Assembly: GCA_002711995.1 (NCBI GenBank) | Contig: PASN01000013.1 | Location: 62,001 to 126,000 of the forward strand | Source of the DNA: Halobacteriovoraceae bacterium | GTDB lineage: Bacteria; Bdellovibrionota; Bacteriovoracia; Bacteriovoracales; Bacteriovoracaceae | DNA: 64,000 nucleotides | Direction of reading: 5' to 3' | Shown: one piece after another, positions 50,820-59,733 of the stretch | Layout of the letters: the number at the start of each line of letters is the position of its first letter | How positions within the stretch are numbered: position 1 is the first letter of the stretch | Position numbers and translations under genes: made by a program | Notes under the pieces: generated by a model | Told to the model about the DNA's origin: nothing | The model's database searches: none | Seen by the model: the letters and a program-made list of their open reading frames with translations, nothing else

Positions 50820-50916
50820 TATTCTTTTTTATCTATAAATGTTTCACTGCGTCACTTTGTGGTTGTATCTCCTTTTGGTTGTGGTAAGAAAGTCCAAACC
50901 CTTAAAGGAGAATATT

Positions 50917-51366
50917 ATGAAAAAAATTTCAACGATCGCTAGTGCCGCCCTTCTTTGTGCGAGCCTTTCGACACCTGCTCAGGCCTCTGATTATGAAGAG
51001 CAAATGCTTAGTCTTGTTTCTGTCGGATCGACTGTAATGGGTGCAGGACTGGGTGGTATGTACCTTACCACTTTTGGTAATGCCTTTGTAGGGACCGCAA
51101 TTTTTGCAGCAGCAATGTCAACAATTTATATAGGGGGGGCAGCTGGATACTACCAAGGTCTAGACAATGACTCTGTTGAGGTGTTGGCCGGAAGTGCTGA
51201 AATAGATGATCTTCCTGCTATCTCTCAATTTAAAGAAGACTTAATTGCAAACTCTGAGACAATCGAGCAAAAAGTGTTCGAAGAGACTGGGGAAGAAGTA
51301 TCGATCCAAGACTTGAGCGATGAAGACATTGCAACCTTGGCCCTACATGCGTCACAGAACCAATAA
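50917..51366 (+). CDS. Small exported protein, YYQGL family copy 1
   Basis: A 149-residue protein and the first of four local paralogues (also at 53584, 54075, 54542). A signal peptide (cleavage near PAQAS) is followed by a Gly/Ala-rich hydrophobic region (about 35-78), then the family signature GYYQGLDNDSVEVLAG, an acidic helix (LPAISQFKEDLIANSE) and VFEETGEEVSI. The start at 50917 follows AAAGGAG; a longer frame to 50839 has no signal peptide or site. No known family is recognised. The hydrophobic Gly-rich core suggests membrane insertion or oligomerisation. Confidence 0.75.
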   Translation: MKKISTIASAALLCASLSTPAQASDYEEQMLSLVSVGSTVMGAGLGGMYLTTFGNAFVGTAIFAAAMSTIYIGGAAGYYQGLDNDSVEVLAGSAEIDDLPAISQFKEDLIANSETIEQKVFEETGEEVSIQDLSDEDIATLALHASQNQ

Positions 51367-51379
51367 GAAATAAATTAAG

Positions 51380-51404
51380 GCCTAGCTTAAGCTAGGCTTT
51401 TTTT
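51380..51404 (+). terminator. Intrinsic terminator after YYQGL copy 1
   Basis: GCCTAGC and GCTAGGC form a 7-bp stem around TTAA, followed by seven T residues. Confidence 0.88.
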
Positions 51405-51536
51405 ATTCATTCACGTGTATATCATTTGGAGGCCGTCAAAAGTTTTGACAGTTCTGGCTTCATAAATAACTGATATTAATAGACATTCCTTGGCAAACAT
51501 ATTGCACCATTACTCCTAAATATTATGGAGTTGCTT

Positions 51537-53435
51537 ATGTTTAAAGTATGGATCAAATTTTTCACTTTGTATTCCTTGTTGTTTGGGGCGGGGAGTGCCC
51601 ACGCGTTAAAACTAAAGGTTAACTCGAATGATCCTGCTGTGATCGCCTTCATTCAAGACGTTGAGCAAGCTCTACCAAGAAGTCTTAAAAGAGACCTTAA
51701 CAAGACGATTCAAATTTCTTTCAAAGAGTTCTTTGGAGAGACTGAAATCGAACCAGACCGAGTATGTGCTAAAAAGAAGGCCACTGCCCAGAGATATGGA
51801 GCGGCCTATATTAAAAGAGACAGAGTGGAGCTTCATGCTGGATTCCTGTCTGCTATTCAGTCAAAGTTTAATGATGAAGAAGTTGCAAGTTTAGTATGTG
51901 GACATAAAGACGTTTATACTCTGGCAAAGGGCGCTTTGATTCATGAGATCGCTCACTTTTACGACTACAGCACATACGAAAGAAAGTTTGAAAGAAACGT
52001 ATGGCAACCTAAAAGGGCAAATCCCAAAAAACCTTATTTAACTTATAATGAAATACACAAGAACAACTTCTCATCAATTCCAACCTATGGGTTTATTAAT
52101 GGATGGAGATTTGATGGCGCAAGAACAAAGTCTCTTGAAATTAAGCATTCAAAAATCAATCATTCGCCAGATATTTATGAGTTCCAGGATATTAAGGAGA
52201 ACTTTGCTGTAAACGCTCAGTTCTTTCTTCTTGATCCTGAGTATAAATGTAGAAGGCCAGTTCAATATGAATTCATGTCTAAAGAATTTAACCATGTTCC
52301 TTTCGCTGGTGTGGACTGCAGTCAATTGGTAAGAATACCTGTTGTAATTAATGGAAAAATAAAAATCCAAACTATTAATAAGTCTCACATTAGAAATGTT
52401 TACTATCTGTTCGCTGGTGAAGCGGATAGTATGATGAGCCGTTGGGGACATGCCATGTTTAGGTTCACTGTATGTCCTCCAGGACACAGTGAAAAAAGAT
52501 GTAAGGTGGATAAGCGTTATAATTTTGTGTTGAACTTCACAGGCTTTATCCCAGGTTTGGATATCGATATGATTGATGGCCTGGTTGGAAACTATGACTC
52601 AGTTGTATCCTTTTCAAAGCTTGGAGATACAGTCAATCAGTATACAATCCAAGAGGAAAGAAACCTCTATAGCTACCCAATGAATCTAAACGATGATGAG
52701 AAAAGACGATTTATTGATCTTGCGATTCAGAGAGTTTGGAACTATATCGGCTCATATAAATTTATAACAAACAATTGCGCCACAGAAGCATTGGACTTCT
52801 TGAAAGGTGTTAGATGGGAGAACGAGTTTCAAAACTTAAAAGTTTACACTCCTCTTGGGCTTAGAGATGTTTTGGACGAAGCCGGAGTTATTGAGAAATT
52901 CGATGAGCCTGAATATAAAAAACAGAAGAGTCTTCACCACTTCTTTCCTTCCAATGCCGCCAAGGTTAATTTTGCCAAGACCAGAATTGCGGAAGGATTG
53001 GGTAATAAAGATTTGAGCAAAGTGGCCATCGAGGATGTGGTTGATGGCATCTCTCATGATCGTAAACTTCTTTGGAACCTGATCATTCTTGAGAATGAGA
53101 AGCTAATGGTTATGAATCAATCTTTAATGAAGAAAAAGATTAACTATTTAAAAGGCAAGGCAAAGACCGATGCGGCACTTGCAAAAAAAGTTCAGCTTCT
53201 TTTCGCAGATCACGTAAAAACTGTAAAAAGAAACAGGCTCTCTTATGGCATCCCATTGGAATCAGACGTTGTGGTTGCTCCTTACCAGGATCTAGACATG
53301 AAAAAGGTTGTGGACTCTTTGGCATCATATCTTGGGAATAAATTTAAAACCGAGGATCAGGCCATAGAGGACCAAACCAAGAGACTTCAAATTATAGGCG
53401 AAAAAGTCAACGAACATTCAATCTTAAATAAGTAA
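51537..53435 (+). CDS. Exported HExxH-DUF4105 two-domain protein
   Basis: A 632-residue exported protein. The ATG at 51537 has GGAG 7 bases upstream; that GGAG overlaps an earlier ATG at 51525. A signal peptide (cleavage near AHA) leads an N-terminal metallopeptidase-like domain with HEIAHFYD (about residues 136-143). The second half is DUF4105: YYLFAGEADSMMSRWGHAMF with its His (about 303), and FITNNCATEALDFL with its Cys (about 412), a papain-like pair. A DUF4105 protein has, as I recall, been reported as a lipoprotein N-acyltransferase (Lnb) in Bacteroides, but lnt is present here. It sits between copies 1 and 2 of the YYQGL family. Confidence 0.78.
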   Translation: MFKVWIKFFTLYSLLFGAGSAHALKLKVNSNDPAVIAFIQDVEQALPRSLKRDLNKTIQISFKEFFGETEIEPDRVCAKKKATAQRYGAAYIKRDRVELHAGFLSAIQSKFNDEEVASLVCGHKDVYTLAKGALIHEIAHFYDYSTYERKFERNVWQPKRANPKKPYLTYNEIHKNNFSSIPTYGFINGWRFDGARTKSLEIKHSKINHSPDIYEFQDIKENFAVNAQFFLLDPEYKCRRPVQYEFMSKEFNHVPFAGVDCSQLVRIPVVINGKIKIQTINKSHIRNVYYLFAGEADSMMSRWGHAMFRFTVCPPGHSEKRCKVDKRYNFVLNFTGFIPGLDIDMIDGLVGNYDSVVSFSKLGDTVNQYTIQEERNLYSYPMNLNDDEKRRFIDLAIQRVWNYIGSYKFITNNCATEALDFLKGVRWENEFQNLKVYTPLGLRDVLDEAGVIEKFDEPEYKKQKSLHHFFPSNAAKVNFAKTRIAEGLGNKDLSKVAIEDVVDGISHDRKLLWNLIILENEKLMVMNQSLMKKKINYLKGKAKTDAALAKKVQLLFADHVKTVKRNRLSYGIPLESDVVVAPYQDLDMKKVVDSLASYLGNKFKTEDQAIEDQTKRLQIIGEKVNEHSILNK

Positions 53436-53439
53436 TTTC

Positions 53440-53465
53440 AAGGACCTAGGAATAGGTCCTTTTTC
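53440..53465 (+). terminator. Intrinsic terminator after the DUF4105 gene
   Basis: AAGGACCT pairs with AGGTCCTT around a 6-base loop, with a T run at its end. Confidence 0.82.
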
Positions 53466-53583
53466 AATTCTTCTATCCATTGTAATTTTTTCCATAATTC
53501 CTTTTTTTTTTGCGTGATGCGTTAGTTGTTTGTGTTACAAACCTTCCACCAAACAATTTGATTGAACAATAGAGGAGATATCA

Positions 53584-54018
53584 ATGAAAAAACTAATTAC
53601 TACAGCTCTTATCGTTAGTGCCCTTACAAGTACTGTTCACGCTAGAAGATCTGACGCTGGCGCTGCTTTTGTTGCATCTGGAGCAAACGCGACTATGGCC
53701 GGTGTATCCGTTGCTTTTGGTTGGAATGCAGTCGCTGTTCTATCTACTGCTACAGCAAGTTTCGCTGGCGTAATGGGAGCAGCTATTGGGACTGGAGTGC
53801 TTCGTTATCAAGGTCTTGATAGCGAATCGATCGAAGTGCTAAGTGGACAAGCGCTTCTTGAAGAGCAACCTGCATTGTCTTTATTCAAAGAGGATGTTCT
53901 AGCTAACGCTGAAGAAAATGAAGAGAAAATCTTTGAAGCTACTGGCGAAGAAGTGAACCTTTTCTCACTTACTGATGAAGAGTTCGCGGCTATGGCACTT
54001 GGGACTCTTGCTGAATAA
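53584..54018 (+). CDS. Small exported protein, YYQGL family copy 2
   Basis: A 144-residue paralogue of the gene at 50917. A signal peptide (LIVSALTSTVHA) is followed by an Ala/Gly-rich hydrophobic stretch, then LRYQGLDSESIEVLSG, QPALSLFKEDVLANAE and IFEATGEEVNLFSLTDEE. The YYQGL motif varies to RYQGL. GAGGAG precedes the ATG. The copy has its own upstream region and terminator, so it is transcribed separately from copies 3 and 4. Function is unknown. Confidence 0.75.
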   Translation: MKKLITTALIVSALTSTVHARRSDAGAAFVASGANATMAGVSVAFGWNAVAVLSTATASFAGVMGAAIGTGVLRYQGLDSESIEVLSGQALLEEQPALSLFKEDVLANAEENEEKIFEATGEEVNLFSLTDEEFAAMALGTLAE

Positions 54019-54033
54019 TCATTGTATTAATTT

Positions 54034-54061
54034 AAGGCCAACCATAGTGTTGGCCTTTTTT
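54034..54061 (+). terminator. Intrinsic terminator after YYQGL copy 2
   Basis: AAGGCCAAC pairs perfectly with GTTGGCCTT around a 6-base loop, followed by T residues. The stem contains AAGGCC and GGCCTT facing each other. Confidence 0.9.
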
Positions 54062-54074
54062 ATGGAGAAAGTTT

Positions 54075-54512
54075 ATGAAAATATCCAAACTTGTAACTGC
54101 TGGAATGCTATGTGCCTCTCTAAGTGCGTCGGCCTATACCACTGAAGAAGAAATTTCTATGCTTGTAGGCTATGGAATGATGACAGCAGGACCTACAACA
54201 GGTGTGGCTTTTACGATTGTAAATCCAGCTGTTGGTCTAGGATTAGCCACGGCCACTCTTGTAATTAATGGTATAAATGCAGGGGCAAGAAACTATCAAG
54301 GACTTGAAGAAGAAGCTATAGAAGTTCTTGCTGGTGCTGCAGAGTTAGAGGCACAGCCTTCACTTTCTCTTCTTAAAGAAGAGCTACATGCAGATGCAGT
54401 TAATTTAGAAGAGGAAATTCTAGCTGAGACTGGCGAAGAAATTTCTATTACAGAGCTAAGCGATGAAGCTCTTGCAACCCTTGTCTTAATGGCAAGCAAA
54501 GGTCAAAACTAA
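54075..54512 (+). CDS. Small exported protein, YYQGL family copy 3
   Basis: A 145-residue paralogue. A signal peptide (MLCASLSASA) shares the string LCASLS with copy 1, suggesting recent common origin. A hydrophobic stretch (GVAFTIVNPAVGLGLATATL) follows, then RNYQGLEEEAIEVLAG, PSLSLLKEELHADA and ILAETGEEISITELSDE. GGAG lies 9 bases before the ATG. It starts just after the copy 2 terminator and is followed after 29 bp by copy 4, probably on the same transcript. Confidence 0.75.
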   Translation: MKISKLVTAGMLCASLSASAYTTEEEISMLVGYGMMTAGPTTGVAFTIVNPAVGLGLATATLVINGINAGARNYQGLEEEAIEVLAGAAELEAQPSLSLLKEELHADAVNLEEEILAETGEEISITELSDEALATLVLMASKGQN

Positions 54513-54541
54513 TTTAAGAAGCTTTATAATAGGAAAAAATT

Positions 54542-54994
54542 ATGAAAAAACTAATAAAACTACCAATTACTATTTGTCTGGCACTCGGAGTATCCAACTC
54601 AGCTATGGCCAACGTTTTTAAAGATGCTCTTGCTTTTTCCAGTTATGGCTCAGTTTACGGAGGTGACGGTTTTGTTGTTCCACTAACGACTGTTGGTGCC
54701 ACAAGTGCTGTAAACCCTGTTGCCGGAGCTGTTGTTTCTGCAACGATGGCATTATACACAGTAAGTGAAGCTAATTACTATCAAGGACTCAGTAGTGAAG
54801 CGATAGAAGTTCTCGCAGGAAATGCTGAGCTTGAAGAGCTACCATCACTTTCAATGTTTAAGGAAGACGTTTTGGCACAGTCTGAAGTAATTGAAGATCA
54901 AGTCTTTGAACAGACAGGCCATGAAGTTAATCTAGAGGCAATGAGTGATGAAGACTTCGCACTACTTAGCCTTCAGGTTCAAAAACATCTTTAA
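54542..54994 (+). CDS. Small exported protein, YYQGL family copy 4
   Basis: A 150-residue paralogue. The signal peptide ends near NSAMA. A Gly/Val/Ala-rich hydrophobic region is followed by NYYQGLSSEAIEVLAGNAEL, LPSLSMFKEDVLAQSE and VFEQTGHEVNLEAMSDED. The GE of the other copies is GH here. A weak AGGAAA site precedes the ATG. It is the last member of the group and converges on queC across a shared hairpin. Confidence 0.75.
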   Translation: MKKLIKLPITICLALGVSNSAMANVFKDALAFSSYGSVYGGDGFVVPLTTVGATSAVNPVAGAVVSATMALYTVSEANYYQGLSSEAIEVLAGNAELEELPSLSMFKEDVLAQSEVIEDQVFEQTGHEVNLEAMSDEDFALLSLQVQKHL

Positions 54995-55008
54995 ACGTAA
55001 TCTTATTG

Positions 55009-55039
55009 TAGGCCACTTGTCTAAGTAACAGGTGGCCTA
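55009..55039. terminator. Hairpin between convergent YYQGL copy 4 and queC
   Basis: TAGGCCACTTGT pairs with ACAGGTGGCCTA (one T-G pair) around a 7-base loop, a 12-bp stem covering the queC stop. There is no strong T run on either side, so it may stabilise 3' ends more than terminate. Confidence 0.55.
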
Positions 55040-55711
55040 TGATTTATATTGAATGGGGTCATCTAGACTGGCCTCTTTGAAGCCTCTTAGTCTAAGAGCA
55101 CACGAATCACATACGCCACAGGCAAAATCCTCACTTTTATAACAAGACCAAGTAAGTTCAAGAGGAGCTTTCAAGTCTTTTGCTTTGTTAACGATGTCTT
55201 TTTTCTTGTCCATTAAAACCGGAGTGACTACTTCTATGTCTCCGGCGGACGTTCCTGCTTTTATGAGTTTGTTAAATGCTTCATAGTATTCAGGTCTACA
55301 GTCAGGGTAGCCTGGAGAGTCTTCATAGTTGGCACCGATATAGATATTTTTAGCACCTATAACTTCGGCCCATGACACGGCCATGGAAATTATATGAGCG
55401 TTTCTAAAAGGAACATAGCTTGAAGGAATTTCATCTGAGTCTCCTTCAAAATCGGTAACTTCTAGTTTCTCGTCTGTAAGAGAGCTTCCCCCAATTTGGG
55501 AAAGAAAACTCATGTCCACAGTTTTTCGATACTTTGGGTCCACCTTGTAATGATCAGCTATTTTGTCATAGCACTCTTTTTCTTTAGCAGAAGTCTTCTG
55601 TCCATAAGAGAGGTGAAGAAAGGCAAGTTTGTCGTGTTTTTTGTTGGCGATAGCGGCACGCACTAAAGAGTCCATGCCGCCGCTAACTAATACAAGTCCA
55701 ATATCTTTCAT
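55037..55711 (-). CDS. queC: 7-cyano-7-deazaguanine synthase
   Basis: A 224-residue ATP-dependent enzyme making preQ0 for queuosine. The PP-loop VLVSGGMDSL (residues 7-16) and the C-terminal zinc motif CYKSEDFACGVCDSCALR are intact, and FRNAHIISMA is typical. Its ATG overlaps the phosphohexomutase stop as ATGA. No other queuosine gene is seen in the window. Confidence 0.94.
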   Translation of the reverse strand: MKDIGLVLVSGGMDSLVRAAIANKKHDKLAFLHLSYGQKTSAKEKECYDKIADHYKVDPKYRKTVDMSFLSQIGGSSLTDEKLEVTDFEGDSDEIPSSYVPFRNAHIISMAVSWAEVIGAKNIYIGANYEDSPGYPDCRPEYYEAFNKLIKAGTSAGDIEVVTPVLMDKKKDIVNKAKDLKAPLELTWSCYKSEDFACGVCDSCALRLRGFKEASLDDPIQYKS

Positions 55712-59334: not shown

Positions 59335-59733
59335 GTGAATAAAGTTTTGTGCATTATGATCGTTTCACTTTTCTCAACACCAATCTTTGCTAGTGGGAAT
59401 CGTGAACAAATCCAAGACAGCATGCTAGATCGAACAAAAGACGCATTGATGTCATATGAGATAGTAGAAGAGAAAAGCAAAGAAGTAATGAGCCAAATCA
59501 AGGCCAAAGTCGAAAATTCAGCAATAGGCAAATATAAGACCACAATCGCCGCTGCAGTTCCAATCGTTACTGGAAAAGTCGCATTTAGCTACGGAGACCT
59601 TAGAGTTTCATATAGCGCCCAATCAGCAAGAACCAAGCTCGATTACAGGCTAGGAGAGAGATGGAAAGTCTTTCATCGAAGTGAAAAAGATGACGGCGAA
59701 AGAACTGGAGTAGATTACTCCGTGCGGTTCTAA
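59335..59733 (+). CDS. Exported hypothetical protein, 132 aa
   Basis: The frame starts with GTG at 59335, with AAAGGGAG 9 bases upstream. A signal peptide (IMIVSLFSTPIFAS) is followed by a helix and then a C-terminal beta hairpin-rich part (KVAFSYGDLRVSYSAQ, TKLDYRLGERWKVFH, GVDYSVRF) that ends in a strand with terminal Phe, a pattern seen in small outer-membrane-associated proteins. No family is recognised. Confidence 0.65.
   Translation: MNKVLCIMIVSLFSTPIFASGNREQIQDSMLDRTKDALMSYEIVEEKSKEVMSQIKAKVENSAIGKYKTTIAAAVPIVTGKVAFSYGDLRVSYSAQSARTKLDYRLGERWKVFHRSEKDDGERTGVDYSVRF

Follow-up and report, generated by a model that had tools for sequence, protein, structure and literature searches.

The window, by which we mean the whole 64,000-nucleotide stretch of DNA analysed, carries an array of four related genes in a common orientation and with good ribosome-binding sites: W1 (50917..51366, + strand, 149 residues), W2 (53584..54018, +, 144 residues), W3 (54075..54512, +, 145 residues) and W4 (54542..54994, +, 150 residues). 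The W1 frame is open from 50839, and a ribosome-binding site and signal peptide fit a start at 50917. Its product begins with a predicted signal peptide reaching to about residue 23, followed by a hydrophobic middle segment, a YYQGL motif and a predicted C-terminal helical domain. W2–W4 align with W1 over the whole length at 37–44% identity, and the elements YQGL, EVL.G, P..S, KE and TG.E are invariant within the array. Between W1 and the three remaining copies lies a gene (51525..53435, +) for an exported protein with DUF7844 and Lnb_N (DUF4105) domains (PF25226, 84.9 bits; PF13387, 73.6 bits against a cut-off of 22.2) and an HEIAH motif. The earlier note's description of four paralogous genes at these positions on this strand, set around a DUF4105 protein with an HExxH motif, thus agrees with what was found. 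A consensus scan for intrinsic-terminator-like hairpins yielded 6 in the region against 3.2 in shuffled sequences; they lie on both sides of the DUF4105 gene and include one after W1 (51377..51400, +) and one between W2 and W3 (54034..54057, +). As the latter comes immediately before the W3 ribosome-binding site, expression of W3 and W4 may depend entirely on read-through or on a promoter of their own. W4 is followed by a long hairpin (55005..55043, +), which stands before a convergent queC-like gene.

A profile constructed from these four copies recovered each of them with e-values of 1e-59 or better, along with eight further copies outside the window (3e-27 to 5e-17), bringing the genome total to 12. 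These scores place the relationship of the genes far beyond chance. The copies occupy five loci, namely the window array (4), a single copy on contig C4, three copies on C13 near 191 kb, three on C14 near 432 kb and a single copy on C22, and the multi-copy loci are tandem arrays with all copies on the same strand. A wider profile built from 16 members again returned the same twelve. Searches of overlapping genome sets (59 relatives, 129 from the family, 369 from the phylum), which include incomplete metagenome-assembled genomes, uncovered just one further genome with these genes, the congener G001 (Bacteriovoracaceae MAG GY13CL_bin.22); none were found in the other ~125 genomes of the family or the ~240 other genomes of the phylum searched. 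A scan of one genome each for ~85,000 species, made with a single conserved motif and hence liable to miss relatives that lack it, likewise gave matches solely in JAGSHJ010000019 and JAGSHJ010000382 of the same GY13CL_bin.22. Weak matches in four other genomes (e-values ~0.006–0.008) appear to be spurious, and two of these were traced to unrelated genes: DNA polymerase I in G002, and a stretch antisense to ffh (SRP54-like) with an internal stop in G074. Those in G218 and G347 are single, partial and at threshold, with the former overlapping the N-terminal part of an unrelated exported ORF of 265 residues.

None of the 16 members scored above the curated cut-off for any Pfam family, and no Pfam family was matched by more than one of them. 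The single match to the PE family (PF00934; 14.6 bits versus a cut-off of 22.0, in 1 of 16 members) is a chance-level one from the Ala/Gly-rich segment, and does not make the PE proteins relatives. Scans of the four window copies gave nothing above cut-off in NCBIfam and no e-value below 0.03 in PHROGs, and a sequence search of the PDB also recovered no match. A phage or viral origin was rejected, given that there was no tblastn match to the family among phages and none in IMG/VR contigs. The impression that this is an unrecognised multi-copy family of exported proteins was therefore upheld, and its twelve copies and presence in only one other genome are not those of a single-copy housekeeping gene. 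The most economical reading is that exported, envelope-associated proteins of this kind were invented at the level of the genus and are expressed together, with an acidic helical domain that stays constant and a hydrophobic segment that drifts.

The N-termini of all 16 members resemble signal peptides, mostly with AXA-type cleavage sites. The mature parts are devoid of cysteine in every member, indicating that they are neither lipoproteins nor disulphide-bonded proteins, and are very acidic, with a pI of ~4.1–4.3. Their weakly hydrophobic middle segment of ~45 residues is rich in A, V, G, T and S (15.6% A, 11.6% V, 11.4% G and 9.6% T), poor in leucine and charged residues, and often marked at its center by N-P-[VI]-A-G or Y-P-[VI]-P. 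The combination of a signal peptide and a Gly/Ala-rich hydrophobic region, originally noted in the window copies, is thus found across the family. As a sign of membrane association, an additive hydrophobicity estimate for the best-scoring stretch of these proteins is only marginal, at 0.8–5.3 kcal/mol, similar to or weaker than the values for the signal peptides. GxxxG motifs are seen 15 times against 9.6 expected, with 40 of 1000 shuffles reaching as high a count, and they are not a family-wide feature. The C-terminal portion is the better conserved one (mean identity of 47% versus 28% in the middle segment among full-length members), consistent with the conserved C-terminal halves and divergent remainders reported earlier. 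The exact signatures given there are peculiar to the window array; across the family only Y-x-G-L and the VL pair are invariant, with the E and G nearly so, while TG[EH]E[VI] has been lost at several other loci.

AlphaFold2 models of W1 and of D1, a copy from another locus, predict helices in the last ~70 residues of the former (pLDDT ~81–94) and in the C-terminal domain of the latter (pLDDT ~78–86), with the middle segment mostly below a pLDDT of 70 in both. The C-terminal region of ~70 residues is a conserved, strongly acidic domain that is predicted to be helical. Structure comparisons with this domain, using models that are partly confident, gave best Foldseek e-values of 1.6 and 5.6 against the PDB and 0.18 against viral models, and VIA-align Z-scores of at most 3.4. 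For the two models compared, no match rose above the level of a common arrangement, which leaves the fold searches uninformative.

Family members from the window's genome and from G001 are 30–53% identical over the full length and 20–36% identical in the middle segment; nearly all genes flanking them are 78–94% identical between the two genomes. No one-to-one orthologues are recognisable between the two sets. In the phylogenetic tree, members cluster by locus across both species, with moderate support for the group from the window locus and strong support for that from C14, so these two loci predate the split of the two species. Where unsaturated, dN/dS is 0.10–0.35 in the C-terminal domain and 0.33–0.92 in the middle segment. 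Purifying selection acts on the C-terminal domain. The middle is much more loosely constrained; its quicker divergence fits either relaxed or diversifying selection, and positive selection cannot be claimed because synonymous sites are near saturation in these comparisons. All 15 complete copies retain an intact ORF. Recent gene conversion between copies is not indicated, since even the closest pairs remain high in synonymous differences (pS of 0.50 for the C-terminal part of the pair B1/B2). A phase-variable surface family, as the earlier note had considered, finds no backing in these loci, where we detected neither a simple-sequence tract nor an invertible arrangement.

The site of the window array can be followed in other genomes. 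At the equivalent site in G001, the csgG-like gene and queC enclose three or more copies. The third genome of the genus, G002, retains both of these genes, with one unrelated exported ORF of 100 residues and no array between them, and in G006 they are ~335 bp apart, which is too close for an array. Elsewhere in the window (59335–59733) is another small, fast-diverging exported protein with 57% identity between the window's genome and G001, whose orthologue in the latter (L026:2507-2915) has a GCGTTA element upstream. Two of the five family loci have a tyrosine recombinase gene only a few kb away (L024:8374-9294, −; L028:1356-2276, −; L025:2600-3574, +), an association that is conserved at the C14 locus in G001. 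The genome has seven matches to PF00589, and the recombinases in question may be no more than the housekeeping Xer pair.

A motif search in the 110-bp regions preceding nine transcription-unit heads recovered GCGTYA/TGCGTYA as the strongest common word, ahead of the ribosome-binding site, which ranked second. It is present at six of the nine heads, 38–78 bp before the ATG, and none of 200 dinucleotide-shuffled sets contained as strong a motif; as the motif was picked after viewing the sequences, the shuffling accounts for how the word was selected but not for all the other choices made. W1 has the element as TGCGTCA (50848..50854, +), 69 bp before its ATG, and W2 as TGCGTTA (53518..53524, +), 66 bp before its ATG and with a second TGCGT 7 bp upstream. 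The exact element is seen at three of the six heads in the window's genome, with near matches at D1 and E1 and none at the C4 copy, and it precedes no other of the ~59 genes of the window. Just downstream of the W2 element is an imperfect palindrome, GTTTGTGTTACAAAC (window 53528–53542), which by eye is not found upstream of other copies.

The exact sequence TGYGTTGCGTYA occurs at four sites across the three genomes of the genus, all of them preceding ORFs with export signals and two of them heading arrays of the family in G001. One of the remaining sites lies before an ORF for an exported protein of 241 residues, close to the C22 copy (L025:6427-7153, −), and the other, in G002, before an exported subtilase-like ORF. 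The 241-residue protein contains two similar internal halves, and its promoter region has several TGCGT units (TGTGTTGCGTTGCGTTATTTTGCGTG), with the motif at G000:C22:7225-7241 (G000 being the window's genome). In G002, where no family copy was found, the 12-mer (L073:1501-1557) is ~50 bp upstream of the subtilase-like ORF. When one mismatch was allowed, the genome-wide count of the longer pattern was no higher than that of a reversed control; every hit that keeps the core and is placed shortly before an ORF start belongs to an ORF with an export-like N-terminus, and the rest are elsewhere, mostly inside ORFs. In this survey ORFs and signal peptides were called by crude rules and by eye. The placement of the core-keeping sites before ORFs with export signals suggests that TGCGTYA marks a regulon of exported proteins.

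The proposal that the DUF4105 protein processes or modifies the family was rejected. Its gene was found in neither congeneric genome, and is absent between the first two copies of G001; no homologue adjoins the other four family loci, and in the window it is set off by terminators. We hence regard it as an independent gene within the array. Its product contains the Lnb_N domain but scores only 15.9 bits against NF051878, the equivalog model for the Lnb lipoprotein N-acyltransferase, whose cut-off is 550. A second DUF4105 (Lnb_N) gene of the same genome (G000:C6:332848-333291, −) differs from that in the window in carrying TGCGTTA ahead of its start, and on this account DUF4105-type proteins may be co-regulated with the family.

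We considered several explanations for the observed gene structure, number of copies, distribution, mode of divergence and common upstream element. The one that we tentatively favor, at somewhat short of an even chance, is that the family, made up of paralogues and restricted to one genus, consists of envelope-associated proteins that are exported by the Sec system and regulated together. In its favor are the export signals, the acidic cysteine-free mature parts, the composition of the middle segment, the predicted helices of the C-terminal domain, the dN/dS contrast between the two parts, the grouping by locus, the low identity across species and the upstream element. Against it stand the marginal hydrophobicity estimate, the low model confidence for the middle segment, the exact element at only half of the heads in the window's genome and the longer pattern's lack of enrichment over its control. 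An unlikely but serious alternative is that they are membrane-active antagonists, in which the middle segment would insert into the envelope of a prey cell or competitor, solubility before delivery would be provided by the acidic domain, and the copies would diversify with their targets. The multiple, fast-diverging, exported copies, their small-residue-rich segment and mild GxxxG excess would suit such a role, as would a host from a family known for predators. There is also a precedent in CdzC and CdzD of Caulobacter crescentus, small exported proteins with a glycine- and small-residue-rich hydrophobic segment that kill on contact (PMC5380434). However, the Cdz proteins are 84–86 residues long, with extended GxxxGxxxG zippers and RTX-like signals that direct them to a type I exporter of their own, and they have an immunity gene (PMC5380434), whereas the family described here has a Sec-type signal, a weak GxxxG excess without family-wide zippers and an additional acidic helical C-terminal domain. 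Moreover, the five loci have no gene family in common other than their own and two tyrosine recombinases, no neighbor was recognised as an exporter or immunity gene, and nothing past the Sec signal speaks for the proteins leaving the cell. A bolder version, which we find doubtful, envisages a lineage-invented, co-regulated arsenal with a constant delivery or solubility domain, a diversifying membrane-inserting segment directed against prey or competitors, and TGCGTYA as a secretome-wide element.

The architecture of a variable segment followed by a constant acidic part could also be that of a precursor, from which the hydrophobic segment would be set free as a peptide while the acidic part, a follower or chaperone, is removed, possibly by the neighboring HExxH DUF7844/DUF4105 protein. 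This is improbable, as that neighbor, despite its HEIAH motif, is missing in the congener that has the family, no cleavage-like motif apart from YxGL is conserved between the two parts, and it is the constant part that is predicted to be folded. Export as surface fibers through a CsgG-type channel, as in curli secretion, is suggested by the csgG-like lipoprotein gene situated 97 bp upstream of W1 on the same strand, and beside the array in the congener too. Yet its product matches PF03783 only weakly (17.8 against a cut-off of 20.8), the gene has been kept in 20 of 25 relatives, of which almost none have the family, and no homologue lies beside the other four loci; we consider this reading most improbable. 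Finally, fast divergence, complete turnover between two species and absence from the third genome of the genus might be expected of neutral, weakly constrained duplicates with little function, but the low C-terminal dN/dS, the intact ORFs and the shared upstream element make this very improbable.

Under the favored reading of envelope-associated proteins, each copy would be exported by the Sec system, with subsequent removal of the signal peptide. The Ala/Gly/Val/Thr-rich segment would then associate with the membrane or with other copies, often folding back at the N-P-[VI]-A-G or Y-P-[VI]-P turn, and the acidic helical domain, from Y-x-G-L....[SA]-[IV]-E-V-L-A-G onward, would lie outside as a constant docking or oligomerisation module. 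Copies would diversify through local tandem duplication, with purifying selection holding the constant domain while the hydrophobic segment drifts or diversifies. Joint expression would probably be achieved by a TGCGTYA-binding regulator or an alternative promoter common to other exported proteins.

Lineage-specific families of Bdellovibrionota (PMC11656739) are similarly taxon-restricted, duplicated and divergent, and come from lineages of predatory bacteria; that set centers on enzymes, such as peptidoglycan-modifying proteins, and its text makes no mention of signal peptides or of tandem or paralogous small exported proteins. Given the predatory lineage and the fast divergence, a toxin-like or predation-related use of the present family is a real possibility by analogy, although no immunity gene, exporter or proven killing feature was found. 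The genomes of such lineages are full of unexplained exported proteins, and this family offers unusually clear handles on them. Its twelve copies seem to share a regulatory element, a constant domain is paired with a variable one, and the corresponding site in a sister species is naturally empty. If these proteins act at the interface between predator and prey, the TGCGTYA element would be an entry to the rest of the regulon; if they do not, the family would still show cleanly how new genes for exported proteins are born and diversify within one bacterial genus.
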